Shown piece after piece: positions 7,885 through 48,012 of a stretch of 64,000 bases of DNA (position 1 is its first letter; every line of letters starts with the position of its first letter). Both the position numbers and the translations under genes were made by a program. The notes under the pieces were generated by a model. The model made no database searches, was not told the DNA's origin, and saw nothing but the letters and a program-made list of their open reading frames with translations. The DNA comes from Ulota crispa (lineage: Eukaryota; Streptophyta; Bryopsida; Orthotrichales; Orthotrichaceae), in contig OY987248.1 of NCBI GenBank assembly GCA_963920765.1, forward strand, positions 19,316,539 to 19,380,538. Reading direction: 5' to 3'.

Positions 7885-8118
7885 TTAACCCCTAAAGGAC
7901 TGAGCATGCAACTGCTACCAGTACAATATGGGGTATTTTTTTTGTATTTGGAATGGATCCACACCTCTACTATATTTGAAATCAACAAAGAAGTTAGAGA
8001 ATAGATCAAAGCGGTTCTAGTGAGCTACTTGAGATCCCAAATTAAAACTTCTTACTGGTGGCAAATACCAATTATACGGCAGTGTATATACTATGCCCTA
8101 TGGTCCTTTAAGGGTTAA
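7885..8118. mobile_element. piggyBac-like TTAA-flanked MITE, 234-bp class (copy A)
   Basis: TTAA at 7885-7888 is followed by CCCCTAAAGGACTGAGC. The right end reads GGTCCTTTAAGGG followed by TTAA at 8115-8118. The interior is 234 bp including both TTAA and has no coding capacity. The same interior occurs reversed at 25863-26096 and, interrupted, at 45760-46650. It lies just downstream of the alpha-amylase stop codon. Confidence 0.75.
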
Positions 8119-8348
8119 CCCTTAAAAGATGTTGCCTACCAAAAATGTTGGATGTATTCATACAAGGACCATTTAGTACTTGAAGAAATGGTTTCATGAC
8201 AAATGTCAAAAATTCCCCAAAAAATCCTAATTGACCAGTAGTATATCTATGACTTGGCTTAATTTAGAGATCCAATGGGATTCGTGTGCTACCCAAATAC
8301 TCCACCCGTATACAACACATGAGAGCGTATAGAATACGTCAACATCCT

Positions 8349-9857
8349 TTAGTGCTTAATTGCTTTATCAATGATATTTCTTTCTTGCACTCTCGAATTG
8401 AAAAGCTCTGGATATTCCTCAAGAATCCGTTTCTGTGTTGCCATGCTCATTGTATTGACTAGTTGGATTTTGATAGGTACATCATGTCTAAGACCAGCAT
8501 AATGAGTTTTTTCATCGTAATCTAGTGATTTATGAAGGATTTTCTTTCCCACTGCTGGTTTTATGTTTTCCCAGATAGCATACTTCTCCCCTGAGCATGC
8601 AAGCCTCCAAAGTTGTTCATCAGGTAAAAACGCCCCCATGTCCATCCTGTATCAGGCAGTAATGAAAATGACACAATTTCTTGGTTTAGTTATGGGACCT
8701 AAGAACAATCATTCATGGGAAAATTTTATGGATACCCTTGAAGTTCGCCATATTTGTATAGATACCTCCAGTTTTTCAGAAATTGCATAAATATCTTTGG
8801 ACCATAATTTTCAAGTGTTTGTTTTGTTATGTACGCTATTTTCTTCATGACCAATGTTAAAGCAAGGAGTACAATAGAATGAAAAAGAAATAACATACAC
8901 ATAAAGGAAAAAGAAATAACATGTACAATAAACTAAACGCTTGAAAATTATGGTCCAAAGATATATGTGCAATTTCTGAAAAACTAAGAATATCTAAAAG
9001 AAACAATATGACAAACTTTAGGGGTATCCATAAAAATTTCCCTACATTTATCCATATCAAGTTGCACAACATTCATTCTTATAAAGATTGCATTTATTAA
9101 GTTACCTTGGTCCTAGTTTTACGATAAGGCGATCAGATATGATGGCTATGTAGATGTCAGCTTCAGCTAACTTGATTTTGATCTTGCTCTCAGCATCAAT
9201 ATGATTACGCAAGCGTACTTGAACAAGCTCTTTGATTTGAAGTTTCAAATTCTTATCAAAATAATGGTCATGAAACTGCAGATATATATGATATAGATAT
9301 ATTAGATATGAGTATTGAAAGATGTATCTTAGAGAGAAATGATATAATATGTATCCTCATTGTAACCAGCTTTTAGTGCCAATTTTAACCCCTTAAGGAC
9401 CAAGCCCCTTTTTGGAAACAAATGGGATTTTGGGCATGTACTTATGGCTAAACTACTTTGTATGATTTTTTGAAACTTTTATGGAAGATGGAGGATTCAA
9501 AGCTCTACGCGAGCATCTAATTTTTTCTTCATTCTAACATTTATTAAAGAAATTAAAAATGAATTTCTAGAAAAAGGTCTAGATCAAGCAGGAGGCAACC
9601 CAAAAAAATTTAAATTTTGCATTAAAAATAATAATATATATGAAATAGTTTCTTTAGACTTATACATAGGTGGGCAACTTTGAATTATTCAATTTTTATT
9701 AATGAGATGAAAGCCATGAGAAGTTTTTGTTTGCGGGTAGGTGTGATTTTGAGAGAAACCATACCAATCCACAAACAAAAACTTGTCATAACTTTTATCT
9801 CATCAATGAAAATTGAATGATTCAAAACTGTCCACCTATATATAAGTCTAAAGAACC

Positions 9858-9946
<89 letters not shown>

Positions 9947-12228
9947 AGATTTTTTTGGGCTACTTGATTTGGACCTTTTTCCAATAATTCTTTTTTTAAC
10001 TTCTCCAATAAATGTTAGAATGAAGTAAAAATTAGATGCCCAAGTAGATTTTTGAATTTCCCATCTTCCATAAAAATTTCAAAAATCACGCAAAGTAAAT
10101 TAGCCATAGGTACATGCTCAAAATCCCATTTGTCCCCCAAAGGGACAATTGGTCCTTTAGGGGTTAAACAATGTAAACTCAATAGCCCTTCACATTTAAA
10201 ATTAAAAATCCGTTTTCAATTTATACATCTTTAAGTTCTTTTGTTCAAAGTGCATAATATTGATCTTTTTAAGAAAACCTTTACAAATGAAATGTCATTT
10301 TTAGCTAGTATTAAATCAATCCTGCAACTTTGTATCAAGTCATTAAATTATTTCTCAATGATAAAGGACATAATTTTTCCAATGTTTTGCATGCTTCTTT
10401 CCATGCTTTGAATTGAATATGCACATCATTAAAAGATTTTCCAATCCCTTGCTTGTATTTTTAAATCTTATTTTTCTGAAATTATCATTTTTGGGCAATC
10501 TAGAATGACTTGAATACATTGTGAATTTGTAAAGTGCAAATAGATTTACTTGTGAAACTTAGAATGCATGGTCTGACATTGAGATTTGTGTTATATATTA
10601 GATTATAGAGGATATCAATTTAGAGGAGTTCTACTGTACATATCTTGTCTTTATGGTTTTATGGCTATCTTTAACTCCTTAAAAAAATGGGTCTTGATAC
10701 TGCCACCCCCCTTTTTGATACTGCCACCCCCCTTTTTGATACTGCCACCCCCCTTTTTGATACTGCCACCCCCCTTTTTGATACTGCCACCCCCCTTTTT
10801 GATACTGCCACCCCCCTTTTTGATACTGCCACCCCCCTTTTTGATACTGCCACCCCCCTTTTTGATACTGCCACCCCCCTTTTTGATACTGCCACCCCCC
10901 TTTTTGATACTGCCACCCCCCTTTTTGATACTGCCACCCCCCTTTTTGATACTACCACCCCCCTTTTTGATACTGCCACCCCCCTTTTTGATACTGCCAC
11001 CCCCCTTTTTGATACTGCCACCCCCCTTTTTGATACTACCACCCCCCTTTTTCATACTGCCACCCCCCTTTTTCATACTGCCACCCCCCCTTTTTCATAC
11101 TGCCACCCCCCTTTTTCATACTGCCACCCCCCTTTTTGATACTGCCACCCCCCTTTTTGATACTGCCACCCCCCTTTTTGATACTACCACCCCCCTTTTT
11201 CATACTGCCACCCCCCTTTTTCATACTGCCACCCCCCCTTTTTCATACTGCCACCCCCCTTTTTCATACTGCCACCCCCCTTTTTCATACTGCCACCCCC
11301 CTTTTTCATACTGCCACCCCCCTTTTTCATACTGCCACCCCCCTTTTTGATACTGCCACCCCCCTTTTTCATACTCCCACCCCCCTTTTTCATACTCCCA
11401 CCCCCTTTTTTGATACTCCCACCTCTTCTTTTACAGTATTGTTCAATTTTTAATTATTTTTGGAATAATTGTTTTTAAAAAATCTAGAATTAAATATGTA
11501 ACAATCGAAGTGATTTTTTGTTGATGTTTTTCAAAATGAAAAATTGCAATCAAAATTTTTGATAAGAGAAGACAACATTCTATTAATTTTTCTTATTAAA
11601 AATTTTGATTACAATAAATCATTTTGAAAAACACCAACAAGAAATCACTTGGTTTTATACATATTTAATATTTCTTCTTTTTTGAGTTGTCCTCAAAAAC
11701 CACCAAAAACTGAACAATGATGTAAAAGAAGGGGGTTACATTATCAAAAAAGAGGCTGGTAGTATCAAGACCCTAAAAAATAGTGTAACTTCTCAAACGC
11801 TTAAGTCTACCAAAGCAAAGCAATTATAAAATTCCCATGTCTCTCAATGCTAAACATTATTCATTACTGTTTCAAGATAATCATCTTTGAATGTATATGT
11901 ATGTTGACATATATATAAATAAAGGGGAATTGATATGTATACCTGGATTTTATCTCAAGCCATAAAAAAATGTTGTAACTGAACAACTCCTAATGAAAAA
12001 GTTTAGCTCGGGGGAAAAGTATAACTTTTTCTTTTGTTTATAAAAAAAATAAGTTTTTTCATTGGAAGTTGTTCAATTAGAATTTTCTTTTGATTCTAGA
12101 TAAAATCACTGTCTTTGAGTTCAAATCTGAATTCCAAATTCTCAAATTCAAATTTTTGATGATAGAAATCTAAAATTTACCCCGGGGTGTGGTGAGATAG
12201 TCAAGAAGGTGTGGTACTCATATCAATT

Positions 12229-12290
<62 letters not shown>

Positions 12291-12291
12291 A

Positions 12292-12322
<31 letters not shown>

Positions 12323-15300
12323 ATAGGGAATTACTATAGCGATACCCTAAATTGCTAATGGGACACCCCCTTTGAGCATGAAATTTGATAATTTAATGCT
12401 ATTTTTGATTTATTAAGTGGTCCATCATTCATTCAACCACAACATTGTCACCTCCTTGAAAGAAATCATGATAAGTACAAAAAAAATTCAAATATTATTG
12501 CACCAATACTATTTTTTGATATGTTTTTGCTTTATGTAACTCAAATATCTTATGTCTTTAGTTTGAAATTTAAGCACACCTATTTTTTTTCAATATAGCA
12601 TTAGAATGATAAAGGTGAAAAAAATCTTCTGATTCAAATTAAAAAATCAACAAAATTAGTATTAAAAATCAGATTTTCATTTTCATGCTTAGAGAGGGTG
12701 TCCTAAGGGTGTCCTATTAGCAATCTAGGGTGTCACTATAGTAATCTACATATATTGAAAATCAGATTTAACGATAACATAATGATATGTGGCATACAAT
12801 GCAAGGTATTCCAGGATGTGTTAAAATATAAGCATAACCCATGGCTATTTTATCATCAGGAAAATTCCAATGCCGTTGACTTGATCCAGTGTCATGGTTG
12901 TCTAAGAAAGTTACTGCTTTTTGGGGCCACCAACCTGTTCATAGAACAAGAGTGCTTAGAATAATTTTCAAAACTCAGCGTTAATACTTTCACAAAATAT
13001 GCAACTTTTAATAACCGTTTCATAACATTAACATATCATAATAATTTTAAGATTCTATACAATTTAATACACTTTTATTCAACATTTATATCTATTTTAA
13101 ACCAGCAACAAAACTGTTATGATTTGTAAAGCACATGTATTTTGAAAAGTTCAAGAATTAAAGAAGGAAATTGATATGTGCACAATGGGGGATTGATATT
13201 TGCACATCCCCGTAGGGGTAAATTTTAGATTTCTACCCATCAAAAAGCTGAATTTGAGAATTTGAATCCAGATTTGGACTAAGAGGCCATGTTTTAGTCT
13301 AGAACCATAAAAAATGTTGCAATTGAATAACACCCGGTGAAAAAACTTAACTGGGGGAAACTATTATTTTTTTTCTATTTGTAAAAAAAGGCAAGCTTTT
13401 TCATTGGGTGTTGTTCAATTGTAACATTTTTACGATTTTAGACTAAAATCATGGTCTCTATGTCCAAATCTGAATTCAAAATTCTCAGATTCAGCTTTTT
13501 GATGGTAGAAATCTAAAATCTACCCCCGGGGTGTGCTAATATCAACCCCGGTGTGCACATATCAGTTCCCTTTAAGAGTAAAACATTTTAAAGTTTCCAT
13601 ATAGGGTGTATGTAGTTAAGGTATAGTGGTGTTACATGTGTCTTCTTTGAAGCAATTCAATATCATACAAATCTAACATGTTTTATCAGCGAGCAAAAAA
13701 AAAAGTTTTCAATGTAGTTTAGCAAATTTTCCAATTTGTCAATCTAAGAATTGAAATCCTTGTATTGGTATGCTTACATTTCATACAAATTTAGCACATC
13801 AAATATCTTGCTAGCTCTCTCAATTAGGTTTGTTCTTTTGGTGTGACTCGTACAATTTGGTTTGTTTAACAATACATGCATATTGCAAAAACATAGAAAA
13901 AAAATCTTTAAAAATAAAAACAAAGTCCTAATCAAGTTGTTTTAACTAACACAACATGTATTGATCAACACAACTATTTTAGAAATGTCCATATCAAGAC
14001 ATTTAATTTAGCAGTACTGTATTGATTTGAGTCTCCTTTTTTTTTTATTGTTAGTAACTTAGTACTAAAAGTAGGAATATGTTGTTCTAAATTCTTATTT
14101 TATATGTGCAACTCAATGTATAAAGAGCTATAATTATGTCTTTTTAAGAGTACAAGGGTAAAAAACATCAGAAGCTTAAGGATTTGAAGATTTTCAGTAG
14201 ATTGTTTTTCTTTATTTGAAGAACACGATGCTTCAATGGCTTATAAAGTTCATCATATGATTATTTAACCCCTAAATGCCCAAGGCCTTTTTTGAGCTTC
14301 TTTCAAATTTACTCTAAACTGAACAAAAAGTCAACATTTTGATAAGTTATGTCGATTTTTTTAAACTTGTAACCGTACAAATTCAAACTAGATATGTTAA
14401 ATATCACATAGAAAAAGAAAACACAACAATATCACTTATGGATTAAAAGATTATAATGTTTAATCAAAAGGGTGTTAAAACTGCAAAAATGACTTCAAGT
14501 CTTTCCATCCTCTTTTCACGTATTAAATCTAAAATGTTGGTCACCACAAAATATTATGTTAAAGGACATAACATACGTAACTCCAATCCATTTATGGCTT
14601 TTCAAAATCTCTTTTGCTATTTTTTAAAATGAATTTCTAGTGTGAATTTTTCTCCCAGATCTAATTTGAGGCTCATTTCCAAGAGCTCTCAACACTAAAA
14701 AGTCAAGATTGCAATGGACACACTTGCACAAAATCTTGAATAGAGCATTCACAATCAATAATTTTCAAAATCAAGTTTTTGATGCTAAAACTAAAATTCA
14801 AAAAGAATAATTCTAAAATATAAAATACTAAAAATAAGAGCTTAGTTAGGTTTTATTGGACTCCAAAATATTGCCGGCACCAAAATGTGGTGCCTTGAGC
14901 ATTTAAGGGTTAAGGGAAAAAAACTACAACTATAATAGTCAAAATGTAAAATAACATACATTAGGGGTTTTTTAACTCAAATAGATGAATGAGTTGAAAT
15001 TTCATGGACGTAAAATTCATTTCTATGTGAAGGTGCTTTAAGTTTTGAGAACATGATAACAACTAAGATAAACATTAGTTGAAGCGGGCTACTTTTGTGA
15101 TAGAGTCTTTTCTGAGTTCAAAGTTTATATAAATATCTCAATGTAAATGCTTATCAAATTAAATTAATGTTATTTTTTTAATGAAATTGATCAAAAATTA
15201 AATAAAGTAAAATTGTTCTAATTTGGATGCTTGAAGTTTGAACAATTTGAAAGTAATATTCCTTGTCATATTGAATTTTGGGATCTTAACTCTAAATTAC

Positions 15301-24300: not shown

Positions 24301-27300
24301 AGTCAATACTTGTTGCAAGCTTTCTTGAGTATTTTGTGGTGGTTGGAGATTGGTCGATAAGGGTTCAAGCATGTTTTAAACCTTTGTTGTGGCAACCTTC
24401 ATCAATTGAGCCAGTTATTGTTTTTTGTGCAATAACAATTGAAAGCCTTAAAATTTAATTTCCAGAGAAGCACAATTACCAATCATTTATACATGTGTAT
24501 ATTCACATCTAATCTTGCTATTCACAAAATTTAAGGTGAAATAGGGGCTTTTAGAATTTTGAAAGAGTCAACAAAAATAAAATACTTGCCAAAAAATGAG
24601 GTTTTACCATCACATTTTGTTTTATCAAATGCTATAATCTCCCATCCCCCAGGGTTGATTGTTCCCAAATTTTGTAAGCCATTTCCTAAGTAGGTTTTCC
24701 ATTTTTTTTAATGGTTACATTTTGTGAATCATCCAAATGATTGAAATATGATGCATCAAAGTTGTAAGTCTCCCTTAACCCTAATTTTGGTGAAAACGAC
24801 TTGCGCGCGTGGAGATTAAGGAGGAACTTCAAAAATTTGAAACTGTAATTTCAAAAAAATACAGAAGCAAAAATACTGAATGTGAATGCACAAAACTAAT
24901 GAATATCAATGTGCTTTTACAAGCTAATAAAATGATACGTAGAAAGTAAGAGGTCATAGAAAAGCTTGATTAATTAACGAATATCCCATAGGTGTGTAAT
25001 TTGGTAATCACATTTATGGTTAAAGTTTATTACATGAGCAATTTATGACACGAAACTTACAAACCACAGTATTGTGAGCCATAGCCTTTTGCATAATCAA
25101 ATCTCCATCCATCAAAGCCAACTTCTGCTCTCATCCAGTTCATCCAATCTGTAAGTTCATCTTGAACTTGCTTGTTTGTATGGTCTAAATCTGGTGCAGC
25201 AGCATAGCATTCTCCTGTATCATGTTTTCCTTGTCCACCACTTTCGTAAGTGTCATTATCAACTACCTGTTTTTCCATGAATATATTTCCTGTTTTAGCT
25301 TTTAATAATAAAATTTTGTGAGCGGAAATCAATGCAATCGTATGTAATGTAGATAAATAATCATACACAAATGGTTGATAAAATTCAACCTGAGAAATTT
25401 GAAAGAAAAAATTTCTCTGAATTTTACTTTGGTTTGTTTAAAGCAATCCGAGTACTTCATAAAGTTGCGAAAAAAAGAAACGAATGCCTTTAGTTTCAAA
25501 TGACCACTCTAGAAGTTTCTTTAGATGCTAAGGTTTCATTAGTTGCAAATTAGTGCAATATGAAATTGGTAGACATACAGTCATAGGATTGTCAAATGTA
25601 TTGTCTAAGCAATCATATATTTTCTAACATCGAAATATCAGCATCTACAATTGGCTATTTCAAAATTGGGTTAGCTTCATATTTCTACATCAGTTAAGTT
25701 ATATCAATTTGATAGAATTTTCTTTTTTTTTTCTCCAAGTTTGTGAAGTATATATTACAAACTTCTAATCATCATTTCATTAACCAACAGATATAGAACA
25801 ATTTGAATGACTCGTGAGTGCTTCTAAAAATACCAAGTATCGTCAAGGTTTTGTTGTCTCTTTTAATCCTTAAATGCCCATAGGGCATAGCATATATGTT
25901 GATGAATAATTGTCATTTGCTGCCAATAAAAAAGTTTAATTTGGGATCTCAAGTAGCCCACTAGAACCGCATTGATCTATTCTCCAGCTTTTTTGTTGGT
26001 CTCAAATGTAATAGAGGTGTGGATCCATTCCAAATACAAGGAAAATATCCCGTATTGTACTAGTCGGAGCAGCACGCTCAGATGTTTGGGGGTTAAGATC
26101 AAGTCCCACATGCCAAATGCATTGAACAAGGTTTACCATTCAAAATTTCAAACCCACCATAAGAGTGACGTTGTAAGACCTATATACTTGCTAGATTGAG
26201 GATGCTCTAAGAGCACCAAAATGTGTCGTCATGGGCAATCAGAAATTAAAAACGATTCACCAAGCTTAAAAACTTAAGTTATATAATTGATAAAAAGTAC
26301 GCAAGAACTTGAGAATTCCCTAGGGAACCAAGGAACTCACACAAGGTCCGGGAAGAACCGACCGCTAGTTCATTGCTAGCCAATCAAAATGAGAAAAAAT
26401 CATTTGCAATTTATAAACTTCGATTAAAAATTGGTCAAAATGAAAAAAAAAAAAAAAAACTTATAGTATGAAATAGAGAAAATAACCAATAGAGCTACTT
26501 GATAAACTGGTTCAGTACATGAATTGAAGGAAATCTACCAAAAAAAATCTCAAATATTTCCCGGGCCCTGAACTCACACCGAACTCACAAGAGGGTGTGT
26601 GTACAGCTTAGCCTTACCGCCCATGCCCCCCATGCTAGCCTGTTGTCAGGGACTCCACCTTCGAAGATGTTCCAATGACCCTGAATGTCTTGTTTGCCAG
26701 CTGTACGGTGGTTGATGACAATATCAGCAATTCCAGAGATTCCATGTTTGTGTAAAACATCCAGGAGATTTCTTAGATCTATCCCTTTTCCATAAGTTGA
26801 TGCGTCCAGATTATAGAGTTGACCTGGCAGATAACCTTTTGGAAATCAAGCAAGCAAAGTCTATTAATAATTCCGGATTGTTTAATTGACATGCGAACCA
26901 CATACAGAGAGACATTAGAGGAAAAATGAGCTCAAGAGAAGGCCTCTGTAGGAAGTGGTTGGAGGGGTCAAAAGTATTTAAATGTAATGTCCTTTTTCAA
27001 ATAAAAAGAGACTAATATCCTATATCCACTTACAAGTACTTCGTGAGAGTAATTTTTTTTACAATATCATATGCTCTTTGTTTGATGAGTGTCCTTGCTT
27101 GATTGGAAATTCTAATCCTAGTTTATTCTTGTATCCCACTAAAGGTCCTTGCATTTGTCATTGTCATGTTATAATATTGTTTTCCATCATCAATCCTTTT
27201 GTTATGTACCATGGTACATTTGAGTACTTCACTCAAGGTAAAGACACTTGTGTAGGTACCTTACCTATGCTTCTCCTACCTCAATAAATAGAGTGGTTTG

Positions 27301-29345
27301 TCAAGGTATAGGGGCCTTCTCTTGAGCTCATTTTTTATGCACTAAGTGCATCATTCTTCAATTACTAAAACTACACTGCATATTGCATTTAGGTTGCCCC
27401 CCTAAAGGACCGAGCCTTTTTTTTCCTTTTTTCCTTTTTTTCTGCAAATGTCACTAAAAACTGCCACTTCTAGGGCAATGGATAGATAGATTCAAATCAT
27501 TACTTTTTTGAAAATCCAATCGTAGAATCTTGCTGTAGACTATGGGATGTACTTGTGGAAAATAAATTAGCTTGTTCTAAATGTAGAGGAGTGAGTTATT
27601 AACATTTGAAGTGACAAAAAAAGTTTTTTCTTTGCTGCCCAAAATTTTAGTAGCATTTGACCACTCTTATAGCAAAAAAAATTCTCAAGGCAAAGTTGAG
27701 GTTTAATTATTCCATGTAGAAGACCAAGTTAGGTATATGTTGGAGAATATTGAGATCAATTGGAGGTGTACAACATACTTCAAAAAGAATTGAATGCCAA
27801 AAAGTAGTGAAATTTGCAAATATACTAGCCAAAATTGGAGGCTTTATGTAAAATTCAAAATTTAAATCAAATCAATCAAAACGGTGAAAACCAAGGATTC
27901 TTAGCCTACTACAACTTGGGAAAAAAATTAATAAAAAAAAAAATACTCAAACCTCTCAAAAAATCAAATCACCAAATTTTACAAGGGGCAAAAGGAATGG
28001 AGGTTTCAGAGTCCCCCAAAGTCAGCACCTTCCGTTCCACTCCCCTTTGCCCAAGTGTTCACACCTTGTGCCACAAGGGTTGACCCTCTTTGGAGTCAAC
28101 ACCCACTTACAAAGGAGAGGCCTTACCCAAACTTCCCCTCCTCCCCTAGTTTTGATAAATTCTTGCAAATCTTCTTTGTTGAATGTTGGTATGAAGAAAA
28201 AATTAGATGCCCACATAAATCTTGGAATTCCCCATCTTCAATAAACGTTTAAAAAAATCACACAAGGTAGTTTAGCCATAGGTACATGCCCAAAATCCCA
28301 TTTATCCCCCGAAAGGACAATATTCCATTTAAAATTCACAATTAGGTTGTCTTACCTTAGAAAATTATCTCATGACTCATCACTAAATCACTTGGAGGCA
28401 TATGCAACTCTCTAAATACTTGGATTTTACATGATTTACAATATGGACACCCTAATTTGTTATTCTGCACCATCATTGTTGTTGCAACTTGCGAGACCCT
28501 TAAAAAAATTGTGCAGCAGCAATAAATGTGTATATAATGTAAAATGTCCAGAAACTAGTACATTATGGGGCAACCTATACGCATTATTTAAAACTGTTTA
28601 TTTATTGATATTAAAACTTCCCATCGTGATGGATAGTTAGTTACAAGTAAATCTGTACGTGTTTTGAATGGTAAGGCAAGGCAATGATGTTGTATTGAAT
28701 TGATTGACCTTGCTTATCAACAGATTGAGAAGCTGGAGGAAGCCAAACATCTGTAACTCCTAGTTCAAATAAATCTTCTACTTTGGACTGAAAGTGGATC
28801 CACCACGACGGATTGTGATTACACGATTCCCAATCAAAACCCTGAAAATCAACAGGATCATAATAACAATCACAAATCATGTTGACTAACTTACAAAAAC
28901 AATAACTTAATGCCTGAATGGCGTTTGTGGTCTCGGTTAGCTACAATTAATTTTTGAGCTGAATATGGGCAGATTCTCACTAATTTTGGGTCTAACTACA
29001 AGCTTATAAGAAATTTCAAGAAAAAAAACTTGCAAGTATTTAACCGAATTTAGAAAATGACTTGTAAAGAATTTCCAAATGTTATATTTCAACTACCAAA
29101 TTTTAAAAAAAAAAGAAAAACCCAAAATTTATCAAAATCAATGGCCTCAACGAGATTCTTGAAGCCACGAAACTGAAACGAACAAATGAAACAAATAAAA
29201 AGAGACTGGCTGGTCTCCGTAGAGTATTGCATCAACAAATAAAAGTTCTGCCTTGGTATAGGTTGTAGTTTTGTTGAGGAATGCTAAATTGTGAGCATGG
29301 ATCCATGAGGAGTGAGCCCAACCCTTTTTGTCAAAATATTAAATT

Positions 29346-29435
<90 letters not shown>

Positions 29436-33100: not shown

Positions 33101-33112
33101 TATCTAAACCCC
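30110..33112. other. Repeat-poor-looking intergenic DNA upstream of the amylase gene
   Basis: AT-rich DNA with no recognisable gene. It must contain the amylase promoter (transcription leftward from about 30.1-30.3 kb), but I see no TATA box I would commit to. The only clear structure is the 71-bp tandem duplication at 30642-30783. The stretch 31490-32620 resembles decayed repeat sequence. Confidence 0.4.
30642..30783. repeat. 71-bp perfect tandem duplication
   Basis: Two adjacent copies of a 71-base unit (CCAAGTCTTGTATGCTCACA through GACATTAGTACA), identical as far as I can align them by eye. Identity in otherwise decayed DNA implies a recent duplication. It lies about 530 bases upstream of the amylase start codon. 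Confidence 0.9.
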
Positions 33113-34049
33113 TTAACCCCTAAAGGACTAAGCCATTTTTTCAGTGAAAATCACTCAAAACTACCACTTTTGGGGGGATTAGTAAGAAGGGAATTTTTTT
33201 TGAAAATTTGGGAAATCCAACCATAGGATCTTGCCCTAGACTAGATTAGGTACTTGTGGAAAAAAAAATCAGGTCATTCCAGATGGACATGAGTGAGATA
33301 TTTATATCTAAAGTGAAAAGAAAAGTTTTTTTTCATGCTGCCGCAAAATTTCAGAAGCCTTTGACCACTCTTACATGAAAATAATTGCTCTAAGCAACTT
33401 TGCAATTTATTTTTCCCATGTAGGAGATCAAGTTAGCTATGTGTGGGAGAATTTTCAAATCAATTGGAAGTACACAACACATAGGAAAAATTAGTAAGTA
33501 AAAAGAAGAGAATGAGTCAAATTACTAAATTGTTAAGAATTTAATTATTAAAATGAAAAATGCAAATCCCAATAGTCATAACGTTGTGATAAACAATCTA
33601 CATCCTTGGGTTTTGTTTTTTTTCCAAAATATTAAAAATTGAGTAAAATAAAGGACTTCAAAGTTTATTTTAGAGTAGTGATTCCATAACTACCTGCAAA
33701 CAAAAACTCCTCATAACTTTCAAGTCACTAAATGAAATTGAATGATTCATAGCTTCTCACCTATAAAAAAAATCTAAAGAACCAATTTCAAATTTTAATT
33801 TTAAAAAAAAAAAATTTTAAAGAAGTTTTTGGGCTGCCCAGGCGGGCAGTCCTCCCTTGCTTTTCAAGTTTTCATGCATAACTTCTTCAATAATTGTCCA
33901 AATGAGGAAAAAATTAGATGCTCGTGCAGATCTTTGAATTCCCCACCTTCAATAAAAGTTTCAGAAAATCACACAAAGTAGCTTATCCAAAGGTACATGC
34001 CCAAACTCCCACATGTCCCCCAAAGGGACAACAGTCCTTTGGGGGTTAA
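33113..34049. mobile_element. piggyBac-like TTAA-flanked foldback element (copy C)
   Basis: TTAA at 33113-33116 plus CCCCTAAAGGACTAAGCC is mirrored by AGTCCTTTGGGGG plus TTAA at 34046-34049. It is 937 bp, with the interior shared with copies D and E. The right TTAA also serves as the left edge of a truncated 234-bp-class element. It lies in the amylase-NUDT3 intergenic region. Confidence 0.75.
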
Positions 34050-34215
34050 TGTCTAAGCGTGCCATTGCAACCATTACAATACGAGGTGTTTTTCTTGTAT
34101 TTGGAATAGATTCACACCTTTATTATATCTAAGATCAACAAAGAAGTTGGAGAATAGATCAAAGCTTTTCTAGTTAGCTACTTGAGATCACAAATTATAA
34201 CTTCTTATTGGTAAC
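34046..34215. mobile_element. Truncated 234-bp-class element (copy H)
   Basis: It aligns to the first ~165 bases of 7885-8118 (ACAATACGAGGTGTTTTTCT, AGAATAGATCAAAGC, GCTACTTGAGATC), with an eroded left terminus and no right terminus. Confidence 0.6.
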
Positions 34216-35064
34216 ACATGTGGTATCCAAAAATCAAGAATGGACTACAGTACCACGACCTCATTCTTTGAAAATTGAGAATGGGGTGAAGAAGGTTTGA
34301 CTACCCCTAATAAATAAATGAGGCTAAACGCAAGACAAAACAAAGGACGGGCCTACAACCACAGATTTTTTATGAAATTACAATCATCTTCTAGAAGTTA
34401 ATTTGGCAATGTAATTAACACCAAAATTCAATATTACAAATTTGATAGAAGAAGGTATGTTCATACTACATGTATAGAAATCATTCATAAATTTTGTTGA
34501 AAGATTGAAATTATTGTAATTTTTTGAAACAAATGTTAAAGAAATTCACATCAATTACAAAATGTATTCAATTATGTCAATTTTTTTACCGTGGATGCAA
34601 TTCATAATGAAGATCATCATGGTGGAATTTTTCTTCTCATGTTAGTAAAATTTAAAAAAGTAGCCATCCCATGGTGATATTCAACTTGTGATATTAATAT
34701 TTTTTTCAAAACTTAAAAATTTTCAATATTTCAAAATACAAGAAGGAACTAGATTTGGTAAACTCTCTAGTGCTAGTTAAGCTCAAACACATCATCTTAA
34801 GAGCTCACACTAAGTTTTGGTAAAAAACCCTTAAATTTTAAAATACACTACACCATGGTGCATCTTTACTACTCAATTGGAAAGTGGGAACCTTATGTGA
34901 ACATTGTGCATGCAAACGCTATCCATGTACATGTGCTATAGTAGATTACATCCTCTATATCCCAACAAAATCTAGGATAAGAAATCATGTTATTCCATTT
35001 CTACAGTAACATTTAGTCATCCAAAAGCCATAAATTGGTCTCAACAACGTTTAAGGGTTAATTT
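34216..35064. other. AT-rich intergenic DNA, nothing recognised
   Basis: No open frame, RNA gene or paired termini that I can support. One isolated element-like end (GTTTAAGGGTTAA) occurs near 35050. Confidence 0.4.
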
Positions 35065-35468
35065 TAGGAAAAATTTCATGGATACCCCTGAAACTTGCAA
35101 TAATTTTATAGCTACCCTTGAAACTTGCAATAATTTTATAGCTACCCCTGAAGTTTGCAATAATTTCATTGGTACCCTTGAAGTTTGCAACAATATCATA
35201 GGTACCCTTGCTTTTTCAGAACTTTCATAGATACCCTTGGACCAAAATTTGCAAGTGTGTTTTTGTTGTGCATGCCACTTCCCTTTTCCCCTTGTGCACA
35301 CACTACTTCTGTTTTGTTATATGTGCACACAAAGGAAGAAGGAAAGTGACATGCACAATAAAAAAACATCTAATTTTTTTGGTCCAAGGATATCTATGAT
35401 ATTTCTGAAAAAGCAGAGGTATCTATGAAATTATTGCAAACTTCAGGGTATCCATGAAATTTTCCCTT
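35065..35468. mobile_element. Hairpin MITE with internal tandem units, upstream of NUDT3
   Basis: It is related to 8706-9047: it begins GGAAAAATTTCATGGATACCC and ends GGGTATCCATGAAATTTTCCC. The left arm holds several tandem units of about 38 bases (TAGCTACCC-TGAAACTTGCAATAATTTTA) that are absent from the right arm. So one arm of the hairpin has been amplified. It ends about 200 bases before the NUDT3 start codon. Confidence 0.7.
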
Positions 35469-35669
35469 AATTTTATGCTAGTTAACATTCGTCAAGTAAG
35501 TTTACGTGCAAAACTCTTCCATTGTGATCGAATATCGTGTTCGAAGCTCTCGACGACTGCGTTGCTTGCTGCTGCACCCAATTTCGTTTCGTCGTCCCGT
35601 TGATCTCGTCCAGCTTCGGCGGTGGTGGTGGTGTCAATCATTTTGCGAAGGACGGGGTGGCAACAAACG

Positions 35670-41600: not shown

Positions 41601-42587
41601 CGCTGTTTGAGCACCCAAATTCCATGCAAAAAGTGCCATATTTGTGCATGCTGCCAGCTCCTTATTATTGATGATTTAAAGATTAGTAGCAACAATGGTA
41701 CCTCATATGGGCGAAGCCAAGCTTGCTAGGAGAGGAATGCTCTCTAATTGCTTAACTTGCCCCCATGAGATCATTGAACATGGCAAACGCTTTACCAGCA
41801 TTTGAAATCAACAAAAGAGAGCTTGTTAGTGGTACAAGAAATGTATCTGATTTGGAGCTTTTTAGAGGGACAGAGGGAGTAGTTATCAACTCAGCATGTA
41901 CAGTCTGAATCTTGACATGTATATTTTAACTGTGAAAAATACATACCTGGAAAAGTGGTGAGGAGACCATATCTTAACATTATCATGCACTTTGGATTTG
42001 CAGGGTTTGCTATCAAAAAGCTTGGAGGACACGATGTACGTCTCGTTTCTTGCTGGTTGCTTCCGATCCATTCGTTTTGGACTGGAAGAGGCTCACGGGT
42101 ATGATCAAACCTCACCTACATCTGCTAAGAGTTGTGACTATTGTTGCAAGAGTTTTTACACTAATGCTAGGATTGTGACCAATGTCGTTATTAACAGGAA
42201 AGGACAAGCGCTGCAGTTCAACTTCATTCTGGAGAAGGGCGGGTTTTCTTATCATCCAGATGGCACTTTCTCCGTTGATTATACAAAGGTGCACAATCTG
42301 ACGCATACGCTTTTGATTGAGCATGAAGAGGTTTGATGGAATTCCAGGTGGCAAAGAGAGAGAATTGAGTTGGAGCATTTGTGCAGGTGAGGCAAAGCGT
42401 GGCAGAGTTGAGTAGGGTGATATTGACTATAGAAGCCAAAGGAGACAAAGCAGGGGCGGAAGCTTTGCTGGAGAAATATGCGGCGATAACGCCACAATTG
42501 CAACAGGCATTCGATGCCTTGGAGGATGTGCAGGTGCCTGTCGACATTGCCCCCACTTTCAAAGTGCTGGACACTCTCAAACTGTGA
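35670..42587 (+). CDS. NUDT3: Nudix hydrolase / dipeptidyl-peptidase III fusion (NUDT3-type)
   Basis: Twenty phase-consistent exons encode 763 residues: 35670-35758, 36576-36734, 36878-36955, 37068-37164, 37428-37561, 37782-37863, 38226-38312, 38407-38513, 38887-39061, 39277-39491, 39727-39808, 40031-40096, 40261-40338, 40538-40633, 40788-40894, 41037-41205, 41325-41408, 42004-42098, 42198-42288 and 42387-42587. Residues ~1-180 are a Nudix domain with box GHISAGD...RRELQEELGI (about 70-92; Asp replaces the first Glu). The rest is a zinc peptidase of the DPP III family (M49): HECCH at 584-588 supplies zinc ligands and the catalytic Glu, and EEAKAD (617-622) the third ligand. Arabidopsis NUDT3 has the same fusion and about 772 residues (from memory). 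The protein lacks a signal peptide, so is probably cytosolic. The donor at 39491 is GC, not GT. About eight residues usual between exons 1 and 2 are not found; a microexon may be missed. Confidence 0.92.
36066..36392. repeat. ~163-bp diverged tandem duplication in NUDT3 intron 1
   Basis: Two adjacent copies both run TGGATGGATCCTGACT, GTTTCCAATTAGGGTTT, GATTCGGTGAATTG, AATCTGAGG and GAGGTCTTTGCAATC. They differ at roughly one base in ten. They lie in the 5'-most intron, a position where enhancing elements are often found in plants. Confidence 0.85.
41459..41881. mobile_element. Stowaway-like MITE in NUDT3 intron 17
   Basis: The left TA-CTCCCTCTGTCCCC is mirrored by GGGACAGAGGGAG-TA. The CTCCCTC terminus and TA target duplication match the Stowaway (Tc1/mariner) consensus. 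It is 419 bp between the TAs, with no transposase. It makes up most of the 595-bp intron. Confidence 0.85.
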
Positions 42588-43285
42588 CAACAGCAATTGC
42601 AGTAGTGTTTTCCAGTAGGGGGCTAGTTTTGTGGAGTGTTAGAATGTTTGTCCAATTCACTTGAAGGCCTTTCTCAATCACCTTGACAAAAGCTGAATGG
42701 AAATGGCTAGGTCATTGTGCTTGATTGTGGCTTAACTTCTGTATAGAAGTTCCTTTCTCACTGATGTTTGTAAGAACGCCAATCATGGGCATAACGTAGA
42801 CCTTTGGTCACATAAAATTATTGTGCCTCAACTTGACCTGTCCAGGTCACTTCATGCTCCTCAGTCAAACTAGTTGCGGCTTTCAAACTATCAATATTTT
42901 TTTTATGTTTGTTTTAAATTGAGAAAATGGAGCTTGCTTCAAATTCAGTTTTGAAAATTGAACATGAGGTCAATGAGTTGTTGCTTTTGTGTGCTTGAGG
43001 TGTTAAAATTTAAATTCCGCAATACTGTGTGTTTACACTTCTGTTTTCTGTTCTAAATTTTCTTAGGGCTGAAATTACAATTTTTTTTTTTTTCACTTCA
43101 AATTTTATTTTCTGTGAAAGTTTCAAAAGCATTGTATTGTAAGTAATAGTTTATATAATTTCCGTCACATTTCATAATTTGATGCATCTCAAAGTAAAGA
43201 TTTTGATTCCCTTAGAACATGCATTACTTGTATGTGGATGTACAATAGAAAGCTTAGCTACATTTAAAGTTTCATTTGGTTTGCA
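42588..43285. other. NUDT3 3' UTR and intergenic DNA
   Basis: The first 200-250 bases are probably 3' UTR and downstream flank. The remainder is AT-rich with no structure I can support. Confidence 0.4.
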
Positions 43286-43635
43286 TAAGGTAGGAGGCTC
43301 ATGAATGGACCATGTAAGGGCTGAAACTGAATTTTGGGGAGGTGAAACTTCTTGAACTATTATTTTTCACAGTAAATTTTCCTCGAAAGACTTTTCCTCG
43401 AAAGACAAGAAGAATTGACATCTAACCCAAGTTGTTTCATGTTTTTTGGAGGTTTGTGGAATTAGTTATAAAATTTTGAAGTGGAAAAGTCATAGGGCTC
43501 TATAACGGTTCACCTTCTCAAATGTACACTGCTTGTACATTTTTGAAACCTATGAAAAACAGCATGTACACATGAGATACATTTGAGAAGGTGGACCAAT
43601 TTTGAGCCTGAGCAGAATATGAGCCGCCTACCTTA
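43286..43635. mobile_element. TA-flanked TIR element, AAGGTAG family (copy 1)
   Basis: The left TA-AGGTAGGAGGCTCAT is mirrored by ATGAGCCGCCTACCT-TA. The interior shares ACTGAATTTTGGGGAGGTGAAACTT with copy 4 at 63327-63655. It is non-coding. Confidence 0.75.
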
Positions 43636-44382
43636 GAATACATTCTACCAATATTGTGAAAGTTTACCAAATGTTGTCATGTTTGTTATATGATATACTA
43701 AGTATTCCTTGGGTTGATTTGCTTGAAGAAGTCAATTTTATAGATTTAAAAAGATATTTGATTGTCTCAAGTTTTCACATTTCACAAGAATTTTAGGGAT
43801 CACTTTAGACATATCATAAATGTTTCTAAAATTTTAAGAACATTTGCCTTACTAAAATTTGCCATATGCATTTACGTATCAAGTATAAGTTGGCAATGTT
43901 TAAGCAAAACTATTTGAAGTCGCAAACAATAATGAAAATGAAACTATTGCATATACATAATTTTTAAAATAGTTCTAATAACTCCACATGAAATATAATT
44001 GACAAATATAAGTTCAAAGAGACACTTTGATCTTGTTGTGAAAAAAAAAATAGCAAATATAAGGTATTTATCCTCTTGTACCTCCATGTATGATGTCAGT
44101 ATGTTTCGAATTTCATTCAAGAAAATGTATGACTTGCCAAGAGACACTTAAGTATAAAAAAATGTATACTTTTTTTAAAAGAGGCATTTATCATGTAATT
44201 CTATTGACATTGAATCAAGTATTCACTCAAATTTGTTGGGATGGGCTAATTTTAACACTTTTACACATACAAAATAATTTGAACCATATAGAATGAACCC
44301 TTCTTAACACTTTCTTTACTCTCTGATTATACAAATTTGCCCAAATCTCAATGAAGAAATTGGAAAATTTTCAAACTTAAAG

Positions 44383-44699
44383 TAAGGAAGGAACACCCAT
44401 AAGCGTTAGTGTCTCCATAACTATCACCTCTAAATTTTGGAAAATTTGTGGAAGTGAGTAGATGTAACTACAAGAATGTATAACATGTGAACATGAAACC
44501 TTAGTGTTGGTTATGGGTACAATGGCAGTTTTCTCTTTAAAAACTCACAACTTACTCTCACAGTATCCAAATAATGCATTTGAAAGTGCAAACCCATTAT
44601 TTTTTTGTTGCTAACAAGTTCCTATAATTTGCTAGATGTTTATTAATAGTCATCATGTTCAAAACCCTTAAACTAACGCTTATGAGTGTTCCTATCTTA
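44383..44699. mobile_element. TA-flanked TIR element, AAGGTAG family (copy 2)
   Basis: TA-AGGAAGGAACACCCATAAGCG is mirrored by CGCTTATGAGTGTTCCTATCT-TA. The interior is homologous to 47640-47953 (for example CTACAAGAATGTATAACATG, CATCATGTTCAAAACCCTTA). Confidence 0.75.
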
Positions 44700-44772
44700 A
44701 GGTGCAAGTTCATGGTGTTATCTAAGAGAATACGGTGCTCTTGTACTTCCCATTACTAGCTTTGGATTAGAG

Positions 44773-45180
44773 AAAGGAATTAATATGGGCACACCCTAGG
44801 TTTGATATATGCACACCTCCCTCTGGGATAAATCTCAGATTTTTACCATCAAGAAGCTAAATTTGAAAATTTTGAATTCAGATTTGGACTTAGAGACCTT
44901 GATTTTGTCTAGAACCATGGAAGAGGTTACAATTAAACAACACCCAATGAAAAAGCTTAGCTAGGGTGCAAATCTTTACTTTTGTTTGTAAAAAAAACTA
45001 AGCTTCTTCATTGAGCATTGGTCAATTGTAACCTCCTCCATGGTTCTAGACAAAATCAAGGTCTCTAAGTCCAAATCTGAATTCAAAATTTTCAAATTTA
45101 GCTTCTTGATGGTAAATATCTCAAATTTACTCCATGGGGTACATATATCAAATCCAAGGTGTGCCCATATCAATTCCCTA
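44773..45180. mobile_element. Hairpin MITE, GGAATTGATAT family (copy 3)
   Basis: It starts AAGGAATTAATATGGGCACA and ends TGTGCCCATATCAATTCCCT. Long arms pair around a loop near 44985 (CACCCAATGAAAAAGCTTAG against CTAAGCTTCTTCATTGAGC). It is the only intergenic copy; the other four are intronic. Confidence 0.8.
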
Positions 45181-45759
45181 AAAAGGTGAAATCAATTGGT
45201 ACAAAGGCCTCCCTAAATTAAAGCTGCCCAAAATTTGAATGACCCAAAAAAAACTTTTTCTAATTTCAAAACGTAAAATTATATTGTAATTGTCTTTCAA
45301 ATTTTCACAATGAAGTAATTGAATACAGTACCAGATCCTACGATTGATTGCACTGAGATTTGGTTTTCCATTTATTTTTTGACTTTGCTATCAAAACAAC
45401 CCATTTTGAGTGTTTTTTAGGTGAAACGTCGTCAAGGGCGTTTAGGGTTAATGTCGAAAGATTTGCCTATTAAAGTAATTTCAAATAACCAAAGGTAGAA
45501 AGAGTAAAGAGAGAACGATGGAACAACATAATGTTTGGGATGGAATAAAATGCAATCAGTAGGAAAAACAAAAACCATTTTTAATTACAAAAGTAAAATA
45601 AAAAATGTAAATTGGTTATTTAAGAAGAAAGGGAAAGTAGAGCTCAATAAGGTTGTGAGCTTAGGAAATGGACTTACAAAACTCAATATTCAATATGGGC
45701 TCACAAGTACCTACTTCAATATGGAACAGGAATTGCATGCAAAAGTGTTACATAAGAAT

Positions 45760-46650
45760 TTAACCTTAAAGGACAGAGCTACTATAATATGAAGTATGTT
45801 TGCTGCTGTATAACTGGCATTTGCTACTAATATACAATTTTTAATTTGGGATTTTGACTACCTCACTAGAACAGCATTGATCTATATTCTAACTTTTTTG
45901 TTGATCTCAAATGTAATCTTGGGGAGATCACTAGCCTATGTTTTAGGAACCATGTGAGTTAAGATAGGCTCCATTTTATTCAAAGGACAAAAAAAAAATA
46001 TAATATGTAGACTTACTATAGGGTTCATGAAATACTATACACTTTAATATATATAAATTAGGGTATGTAAAAACATTAGGTAGTAGAATTTTTTTATTAA
46101 TAAATTAGCCTTGACAAATAGGGATTGTGAAAAAATTTAGTGTTGTTTGCTACTCTCCATGTTAAATTGTTTTAAACACATGCCATAGAATTGAGAAATA
46201 CTAAGAACTTGTTACTAAATTTTTCACTTAGACTATAGCCCTCTAATTCATATGCTTGTTATTGGTTTCATGGTGAATACCATGTGTGTATATGTAATAG
46301 AAAGTAAGAATTTTTTTTTGATGAATAATGGAGATAGGATAAAATTGGACAAACAAAATTTATACATAAAATAGCACCGTTCAAAAACCAAATGAATGAG
46401 TTTATAAAAAAAATAGGGTATTAGAAATATGATCCACGTAGCTTTTTATATAAAAATACGGTCATTTTAATTACCATATTTTAGATAAGTAACCCTACAT
46501 CAAATACCCTCTTAACTCACGTGTATACCACAAAATCACAAGGAGTGATCTCCCTGAGAATGTAATAAAGGTGTGGATGCACTCCAAATACAAGAAAGAT
46601 ACCTTGTATTGTACTGGTCGCAACGGGCTGCTTTGTCCTTTAGGGGTTAA
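45760..46650. mobile_element. piggyBac-like 234-bp-class element (copy I), interrupted
   Basis: TTAA at 45760-45763 plus CCTTAAAGGACAGAGC is mirrored by TTTGTCCTTTAGGGG plus TTAA at 46647-46650. Without the inner insertion and its duplicated target it is about 242 bp, the same element as copies A and G. Confidence 0.75.
45918..46558. mobile_element. hAT-like insertion with 8-bp target duplication
   Basis: The 641-bp insert is flanked by AATGTAAT on both sides (45910-45917 and 46559-46566). Its termini, CTTGGGGAGATCACT and AGTGATCTCCCTGAG, are inverted. The uninterrupted site is visible in copy G, which reads CAAATGTAATAGAGG. Eight-base duplications are typical of hAT elements. No transposase is encoded. 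Confidence 0.8.
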
Positions 46651-46760
46651 GTGCAATAATGTTTGAGTGTAGCCCTAAGGTTGGTTCAACATTGGTTAGC
46701 TTAAAATAGTTTTTTCTCAAAAGATAATGTTGGCACGCTCAAGTGTATCTTGAATATCAT

Positions 46761-48012
46761 TTAACCCCTAAAGGCCCAAGCCCATTTTTTTGTGAAATTC
46801 ACTAAAAACTGCTACTTTGGAGGGAATGAGTAGAAAAGTAGAAAATAAAGTTTGTTTTGAAAATCCAACTGTAGGATCTTGCCTTAGGCTAGAAGAGGTA
46901 CTTGTGGGAAAAAAATCAAGTCACTCTAGATGGAGAGGAGGGAGATATTTACACCTGAAGTGCAAAAAAAAGATTTTCATCCATGCTGTCCAAAAAATTC
47001 AAAAGCCTTTGACCACTCTTACATGAAAAAAATTGCTCTACATAAAGTTGAGGTTTATTTTTTCCACGTAAAAGACCAAATTAGGTATGTGTGGGAGAAT
47101 TTTCAAATCAATTGGAACTATACAACACATTGGACAAAAAATTGTAAGTAAAAAGAAGTAGAGAAGGAGTCAAATCACTAAATTGTTAAGAATTTAATTA
47201 TTGAAATGAAAAATGTAAACACCAATGGTTATAATGTTGTAATAGACAATCTACTTCCTTAAGTTTAGTTTTTTTTCCGAAATGTTGAAAATTGTGGAAA
47301 ATAAAGGATTTAAAGTTTATTTTAGAGTAGAGGATCAGTAATTGCGCACAAACTAAAACATCTCACAACTTTGATTTCACTTATTGAAACCAAATGATTC
47401 AAAGCTTCCCACATATTAAAAATCTAAAGAACCAATTTCAAATTTTGATTTTTTTAAAGTACAAATTTTAAAGAAATTTTTGGGTTGCCCGGATTGCCCT
47501 CCCTCCCCCGGGTTGCAGAAATTCTTGCATAACTTCTTTGTCAAATGTCAAAATGAAGAAAAAACTAAATGCCCACGTAGGTCTTGGAATTCCCACCTTA
47601 AATACAAGTTTCAAAAAATCACAAAAAATAATTTAGCTATAAGGTAGGAGCTCCCATAAGCGTCAGTGTCCCCATAACCATCACTTTTAAAATCTTGAAA
47701 AATTTGTGGAAGTGAATGGATGTAATGACAAGAATGTACAACATGTGAACATGAATTCTTGAAAGTGGTTATGGGTGCAATGGCAGTTTGCTCTTTAAAA
47801 ATTCATAACTTATTCTCACAGTATTCAAACAATACATTTGAAAGTGCAAACTCATTTTTTTTCTGTTCCTAGATCCTATAATTTACTAGTTGTTTATTTA
47901 TAGCCATCATGTTCAAAACCCTTAGTTTGACCTTTATGGGTGCTCCTACCTTAGGTACATGCTTGAAATTCATTTGTCCTCCTGGGGACAGTTGGGCCTT
48001 TAACGGGGTTAA
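46761..48012. mobile_element. piggyBac-like foldback element (copy E), interrupted
   Basis: TTAA at 46761-46764 plus CCCCTAAAGGCCCAAGCCC is mirrored by GGGCCTTTAACGGGG plus TTAA at 48009-48012. The interior matches copies C and D. An AAGGTAG-family element is nested at 47640-47953; without it the element is about 940 bp, like copy C. Confidence 0.75.
47640..47953. mobile_element. Nested TA-flanked TIR element, AAGGTAG family (copy 3)
   Basis: TA-AGGTAGGAGCTCCCATAAGCG is mirrored by ATGGGTGCTCCTACCT-TA. Copies B and D of the host element show the empty site AGCCATAGGTACATG, where a single TA replaces TA-insert-TA. This proves the insertion and its TA duplication. Confidence 0.85.

Follow-up and report, generated by a model that had tools for sequence, protein, structure and literature searches.

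A 64,000-nucleotide window of the nuclear genome of the moss Ulota crispa contains short elements that are bounded by TTAA and share inverted ends starting with CCC. This raises the question of which transposon superfamily the elements belong to and what could have moved them. The window, meaning the whole stretch of DNA analysed here, is C7:19316539-19380538 (contig OY987248.1, forward strand) within the 274.8-Mb, 157-contig assembly GCA_963920765.1. On the 112,500-bp contig C157, the parts read contain the plastid genes rps12, rps7, psbD, psbC, rps4, ndhJ, ndhK, ndhC, atpB and rbcL, assigned by eye; no gene was recognised in the first 2.5 kb of C156, a 104,638-bp contig of moss-mitogenome size. 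An LHCII protein has its highest scores, for hits of usual chain length, to the Physcomitrium structures 8htu and 7xqp (458 and 457 bits, with 437 for the following one), and 9vfj, a longer chain, ranks first overall. We conclude that the elements are very probably non-autonomous miniature inverted-repeat transposable elements (MITEs) of a plant nuclear genome that belong to the piggyBac superfamily, which is known chiefly from animals. A sequence-only reading of the window had suggested piggyBac-like MITEs, and our analysis supports that interpretation, firmly for a class of 780-940 bp and, for two further classes of 234 and 649 bp, because they share the terminal repeat and the TTAA target.

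We assessed the ends in the window against randomized sequence. With up to three mismatches, TTAACCCCTAAAGG matched at 22 places, compared to a mean of 6.8 and a largest count of 20 in 100 shuffles. Inverted TTAA-to-TTAA pairs, 150-1500 bp apart with at most three mismatches per end, numbered seven, compared to a mean of 0.03 and a maximum of two in 60 first-order Markov sequences. These seven pairings correspond to five of the elements noted earlier and to two combinations that involve a further end, at 8359 (7885-8359 and 8115-8359). The sequence-only reading had listed seven TTAA-flanked elements with CCCCTAAAGG ends; all seven were found, and their coordinates match the sequence. Five of them have paired mirror ends with at most three mismatches per end, and the other two miss the pair cut through an indel in one end. 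In 45760-46650 this is the left end, which starts TTAACC-TTAAAGG, and in 46761-48012 it is the right end (inward reading TTAACCCCGTTAAAGG). The ends at 8118 and 14913 are CCCTT variants, and further piggyBac copies of this genome start with CCCT, CCCC or CCCA. The end CCCCTAAAGG includes CCCTAAA, the plant telomere repeat unit; the ends of two piggyBac lineages, those of L009 and L032, are without it, so the resemblance is probably a coincidence.

To characterize possible sources of transposase, the genome was searched with the profile PF13843 (DDE_Tnp_1_7). The profile matched at least 120 times (best E 1e-73), compared to no match in any of 14 control genomes; the count is a lower bound from 116 scored candidates out of 528, with a few copies giving two matches. 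No PF13843 match of this genome search was listed within the 64-kb window. A 472-aa open frame of the copy L032 matches piggyBat (9c0f, E 4e-18) and T. ni piggyBac (6x67, E 7e-16), and three of its Asp residues align with Asp residues of T. ni piggyBac that we take to be the catalytic triad. The motifs DE, DN and GVDVADQ are present in L011, and DE, DN and GVDVASQ in L026. A Cys/His-rich tail was read by eye in L011, and four other open reading frames scanned for domains gave PF13843 alone. In a tree of 21 of the 23 fetched transposase copies (L019 and L031 were left out), L011, L025 and L026 form one clade (support 1.00), L012 and L022 another (1.00), and both groups come together at 0.84. 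A separate clade (1.00) contains L013, L027, L032 and L033, while L009/L018, L010/L020, L014/L021, L015/L028, L017, L016 and L023/L024 lie apart. About ten piggyBac lineages are found among these 21 copies of one genome, with between-clade identity down to ~30%.

Extension of the 3' flanks of 16 copies revealed CCCCTAAA-type ends in five of them (L011, L012, L022, L025 and L026). The autonomous-type partner implied by the sequence-only reading was recovered: L026, an element with DDE_Tnp_1_7, has exactly the ends of the window elements, and L011 has nearly these. Both ends were located for five elements:

L026: 8,530 bp; exact TTAACCCCTAAAGG at both ends (CCCCTAAAGG termini); piggyBac transposase (PF13843, E=7e-63).
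L011: 8,033 bp, including a nested MITE of ~926 bp; both ends found, nearly CCCCTAAAGG.
L012: 5,746 bp; CCCCTAAATGCCTAA at both ends.
L032: 5,656 bp; ends CCCATTAAGG / CCCTTTAAGG; TCAA on one side.
L009: 5,027 bp; ends CCCCTCATCGCC / CCCTTCATTGCC.

Within the window, we distinguish the following elements and parts of elements, with L026 belonging to lineage A and L012 to lineage B:

7885..8118, plus strand: MITE of the 234-bp class with ends CCCCTAAAGGAC / CCCTTAAAGGAC; a TTAA-bounded pair, 82% identical to 25863-26096 over 234 bp.
9385..10167, no strand assigned: fold-back MITE, both ~172-bp ends of which copy the transposase-upstream (5') end of L026 (lineage A).
14265..14913, no strand assigned: MITE of the 649-bp class with a CCCCTAAATG end as in L012 (lineage B).
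25863..26096, minus strand: MITE of the 234-bp class within an intron of an alpha-amylase gene.
27433..28329, minus strand: degenerate copy of the 780-940-bp class, absent from the earlier reading; 75% identical to M_L001 over 585 bp and matching both L026 ends.
33105..33112, plus strand: left tip (TAAACCCC) of a 234-bp-class copy split by 33113-34049, from the alignment of the joined flanks.
33113..34049, minus strand: MITE of 937 bp, an internal-deletion derivative of a lineage-A piggyBac element, with the 3' end at the left.
34046..34220, plus strand: rest of the degenerate 234-bp-class copy hit by 33113-34049, from the joined-flank alignment; absent from the earlier reading.
45760..46650, minus strand: 234-bp-class MITE split by a 641-bp insert (45918-46558); its two parts are 81% identical to 7885-8118.
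46761..48012, minus strand: MITE of the 780-940-bp class (lineage A) with a foreign insert of ~314 bp at 47640-47953; 79% identical to 33113-34049 over 895 bp.

With the interrupting inserts excluded, the window MITEs are 234, 649 and 783-937 bp long and non-coding. The three interior classes described earlier (234, 649 and 780-940 bp) were kept, and three members were reassigned, one as a fold-back element and two as interrupted copies.

The link between the MITEs and their parents is clearest in 33113-34049. Its first 367 bp (q1-367) match the 3' end of L026 (74%, E 1e-57) and q761-937 match the 5' end (81%, E 5e-43); q1-359 also match the 3' end of L025 (78%, E 5e-80). We then omitted the terminal 14 bp and compared scores with 200 shuffles. 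Under these conditions, 33113-34049 matches the 3' ends of L025, L011 and L026 and the 5' ends of L026 and L011, at scores reached by 0 of 200 shuffles. Positions 1-356 of 46761-48012 match the L025 3' end as well (76%), and a copy on C1 is 84% identical to 33113-34049 over 948 bp. These alignments firmly indicate piggyBac-derived parentage beyond the terminal repeat for the 780-940-bp class only. Judged from its sequence, this class keeps ~370 bp from one end of a lineage-A element and 177 bp from the other and is an internal-deletion derivative. In 9385-10167, q1-171 (78%) and q613-783 (82%) both match L026 512-681, one in each orientation. Since the same 5' end is matched twice in opposite directions, we describe this element as a fold-back.

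For the other two classes, similarity to the piggyBac elements is largely confined to the tips. The ends of 14265-14913 match those of L012 over 29 bp (86%) and 36 bp (81%). When the terminal 14 bp were omitted, its right end scored best against the L012 5' end, weakly (3 of 200 shuffles reach the score, or 15 in 1000). L012 was dropped as a firm parent of the 649-bp class, as the link was not borne out without these 14 bp; the class has the CCCCTAAATG terminal repeat in common with L012 and L022, and little else. In the 234-bp class, we compared one end of two copies with the L012 and L022 3' ends beyond the terminal repeat and found a modest similarity. The scores were reached by 1/200 and 0/200 shuffles, respectively, for the left end of the 7885 copy and by 0/200 and 7/200 for the right end of the 25863 copy. 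Two lineages carry CCCCTAAAGG-like and CCCCTAAATG ends, and one or several transposases may have served the three classes.

Further copies were considered as partners and set aside. L009 and L018, the best PF13843 hits, were rejected as direct partners in view of the L009 ends, and the L032 ends are close to, and not identical with, those of the MITEs. L031 has no matching end pair, L033 has 3'-type ends only, and L019 has no convincing end in the extra flanks. L025 was not accepted as a full partner, its 3' end matching the MITEs and its 5' end not being found. As a separate observation, 14265-14300 and the L032 3' subterminal part share AAGGCCTTTTTTGAGCTT at different distances from the end.

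Next, we set out to determine the target site. Genome-wide, 15,411 of 16,065 ends (96%) retain the first T of TTAA, with a non-T (V) there 307 + 347 times. For nine MITE insertions, we joined the two flanks on one TTAA and searched the genome for the resulting junctions. Insert-free paralogs were obtained for one of them, a 955-bp MITE at C1:52018-52972 that lies in a multi-copy repeat. Its junction is spanned at 23 listed places, of which 20 were fetched and aligned. In each of the 20, the flanks adjoin across exactly four bases, at the place where TTAA borders the insert on either side in the filled copy. The four bases read CCAA in 17 paralogs, while TCAA, GCAA and TGAA were each seen once. 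This is most simply explained by a mutation to TTAA in one copy of the repeat, followed by an insertion there that duplicated exactly these 4 bp. The window itself holds natural empty-site evidence: 33113-34049 sits in a TTAA inside a 234-bp-class MITE, and its flanks, joined on one TTAA, align gap-free at the junction with 7885-8118 and 25863-26096. At the target position these two relatives have TAAA and CAAA; therefore this site too had gained TTAA. Retention of the first T, together with empty sites that carry a single 4-mer, agrees with the earlier proposal that TTAA is the target duplication.

The target site bears directly on alternative explanations. The duplication could be just TA, as in Tc1/mariner-like elements, with the outer T and A a sequence preference, and an ACCCC...GGGGT element inside TA would look identical at a TTAA site. 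We reject this on the conservation of the first T and on the empty sites, and give it next to no credence; the encoded transposase is also piggyBac, and the filled copy at C1:52018-52972 differs from most of its paralogs at both T positions, as if all of TTAA were required. Superfamilies other than piggyBac duplicate TTAA too, and some or all of the MITE classes might derive from one of these, of the Kolobok or Sola3 type. The 234-bp class, which is without a transposase-encoding parent, and the weak link of the 649-bp class leave room for such an origin. Kolobok elements target TTAA and have ends that begin with purines, whereas the ends here start with CCC and a PF13843 transposase lies between them. 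In addition, the similarity between the 780-940-bp class and a PF13843-encoding element extends past the terminal repeat at both ends, and the other classes share the terminal repeat. We consider a Kolobok or Sola3 source very unlikely for some or all of the classes, and for the 780-940-bp class it is ruled out by the piggyBac transposase between the shared ends.

The piggyBac copies might instead be chance neighbours, that is, unrelated genes flanked by MITE ends. MITEs are dense enough to suggest this, with seven in the 64-kb window and others inside L011 and beside L032, L026 and L012. Yet the gene in L026 is preceded by a 5'-type end and followed by a 3'-type end, which 33113-34049 matches over 177 bp and 367 bp, respectively. 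The two end types follow each other in this order in L011 as well. L011, L025 and L026 belong to one clade, and each has a 3' flank that matches one and the same MITE end. A chance association is in our view highly improbable.

Assignment to piggyBac is retained, and several observations weigh against it. The consensus end is CCCCT, which has one C more than the usual CC[C/T]T. Among the 16 copies with extended 3' flanks, the remaining 11 have CCCCTAAG, other CCCT-type ends or no recognised end; a stretch of 4.1 kb yielded no 5' end for L025; and none of the five lineage-A and lineage-B copies examined has an intact transposase. For 14265-14913, the best match in the L012 region (90 bp, 78%) falls upstream of, and outside, the L012 element. 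The left 29 bp of this MITE are 90% identical to L011, slightly more than to L012, and its left end without the terminal 14 bp scores best against L032 (0/200 shuffles), at an offset. In the 234-bp class, the other end has no standout similarity to piggyBac element ends, and no parent was found. The empty-site comparison proposed by the sequence-only reading was borne out in part: a single 4-mer is present in 20 of 20 paralogs of one insertion, and these 4-mers are other than TTAA. The target must therefore have mutated to TTAA before insertion. The one insertion with empty paralogs is a MITE outside the window, its sites are paralogous and not orthologous, and for the other eight of the nine the genome search returned their own flanks and no paralogous empty site.

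We assessed the abundance of the ends across the genome, where the check for end pairs proposed earlier turned up thousands of ends. Exact TTAACCCCTAAAGG ends number 7,719 + 7,692 = 15,411, compared to 1 + 0 for the reversed control. TTAACCCCTAAATG occurs 3,188 + 3,179 times (control 1 + 0). By eye count of its first 100 listed sites, 14 plus/minus pairs span 637-656 bp and four span 908-933 bp, and the 14 pairs identify the 649-bp class as a real family. Facing TTAACCCCTAAATG ends were also seen just 79 bp apart, at C1:241512-241590 and 531562-531640, and are either very short elements or palindromes. A core motif taken from the 234-bp class is found 753 + 767 times (control 0), and the full sequence of the class (7885-8118) gave 4,002 first-look candidates, of which the 40 that were scored are, besides itself, 91-94% identical. 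A 5'-end hairpin adjoining CCCCTAAAGGACC has 127 + 134 exact occurrences (control 0). As five of the 14 ends of the seven elements are exact, scaling to 15,411 gives an estimated ~43,000 ends, ~20,000 elements and ~4-5% of the genome, a crude extrapolation from a single window that was not randomly chosen.

These data suggest how the elements may have spread. A piggyBac transposase encoded elsewhere would have bound the ends, cut at the CCC and pasted the element into TTAA, and the shared ends suggest that this movement took place in trans. The 649- and 234-bp classes could have moved via the terminal 10-15 bp alone, the former perhaps by means of the transposase of lineage B, with which it has the CCCCTAAATG end in common. 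The estimated 20,000 copies may be the product of several waves, after which the sampled transposase copies decayed, with TAG and TGA favoured among their stops. In 19 copies from the L009-L028 set, the domain contains 38 TAG, 25 TGA and 11 TAA stops, compared to 90 CAG, 59 CGA and 181 CAA codons. Such a bias would be explained by C-to-T change at CHG and CG positions, the trace that methylation would be expected to leave in silenced transposons of a plant. Equal-score piggyBac matches on opposite strands were also seen as pairs at C7:18203169/18223004 (~20 kb) and C2:36765124/36779670 (14.5 kb), and are either large inverted duplications or assembly artefacts.

The window contains further features around the MITEs. 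The alpha-amylase exons lie on the minus strand at 26588-26845, read by eye, and within 25060-25437, where the PF00128 match is barely above the cut-off. The 641-bp insert at 45918-46558 has 15-bp inverted ends, CTTGGGGAGATCACT / CTCAGGGAGATCACT, is hAT-like and is bordered by an 8-bp duplication, AATGTAAT, at 45910-45917 and 46559-46566. The insert at 47640-47953 has a paralog at 44383-44699 (83%) and represents a second MITE-like family with ends AGGTAGGAGC, apparently TA-flanked. A 21-bp minisatellite with a TTTTTGATACTGCCACCCCCC-type unit and more than 30 copies lies downstream of 9385-10167, at 10700-11430. Palindromic repeats of one family, up to ~410 bp long, are present at 11961-12244, 13165-13574, 44776-45182, 51793-52135 and 52607-52916, with a further copy nested within the L012 piggyBac element. 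At 58792-60909 there is a 705-aa open frame with a 45-bp tandem repeat at 59424-59751 and no Pfam match.

Compared to the piggyBac superfamily as represented by T. ni piggyBac and piggyBat, the elements share the TTAA duplication, short CCC-starting inverted ends and a DDE_Tnp_1_7 transposase, but they differ in their plant host, their mostly CCCCT ends and the presence of about ten lineages in one genome. They resemble plant MITEs of the Tc1/Mariner, PIF/Harbinger, hAT, Mutator and CACTA superfamilies in being short, non-coding and of high copy number, with at least one copy in a gene, and differ from them in the TTAA duplication and the piggyBac parent; the target duplications of those five superfamilies differ from TTAA. 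A study on coral CMITEs and AmiPB elements describes piggyBac MITEs and gives hallmarks of piggyBac that include a CC[C/T]T-type terminal motif, and there, as here, TTAA-flanked MITEs share ends with a local piggyBac-like element (PMC2872659). Some coral ends, for example CCCTTTAACGCCC, look like those of L032, and the coral piggyBac elements given there measure 2.2-3.7 kb, compared to 5.0-8.5 kb for the five two-ended elements here (PMC2872659). One coral MITE family shares a terminal repeat and weak adjacent similarity, whereas one class here shares 177 + 367 bp (PMC2872659).

The sequence-only reading had called piggyBac poorly documented in land plants. In the open-licence literature, as far as its accessible text extends, this holds. 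The superfamily is missing from a land-plant transposable element review, where six terminal inverted repeat (TIR) superfamilies are given and 'piggy' is absent from the accessible text (PMC9033089). It is likewise absent from the main text of a MITE survey of 207 plant genomes, four of them bryophytes, which reports five main superfamilies and Micron (PMC12550479). The text available of PMC12595863 contains no occurrence of piggyBac, nor does that of PMC11704416; in PMC10619864, one of two occurrences of the word is 'piggybacking'. The superfamily is not wholly absent from the literature: a fern genome table gives 1,230 PiggyBac repeats covering 122 kb (PMC6890710), and one plant review lists PiggyBac among plant superfamilies (PMC10794571).

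In conclusion, the elements are of a known kind and are very abundant and diverse, and it is this abundance and diversity in a plant that is surprising. We tentatively propose, at somewhat short of even odds, that mosses host an old, diversified piggyBac radiation of about ten lineages, with elements of 5-8.5 kb and MITEs that fill several per cent of the genome. If this is true, piggyBac would be a major further TIR superfamily of land plants that is unclassified or misfiled in repeat surveys. More than 15,000 piggyBac-type ends and at least 120 transposase matches suggest that plant transposable element schemes can miss a dominant DNA transposon. The genome also offers a native piggyBac system for studying plant silencing.

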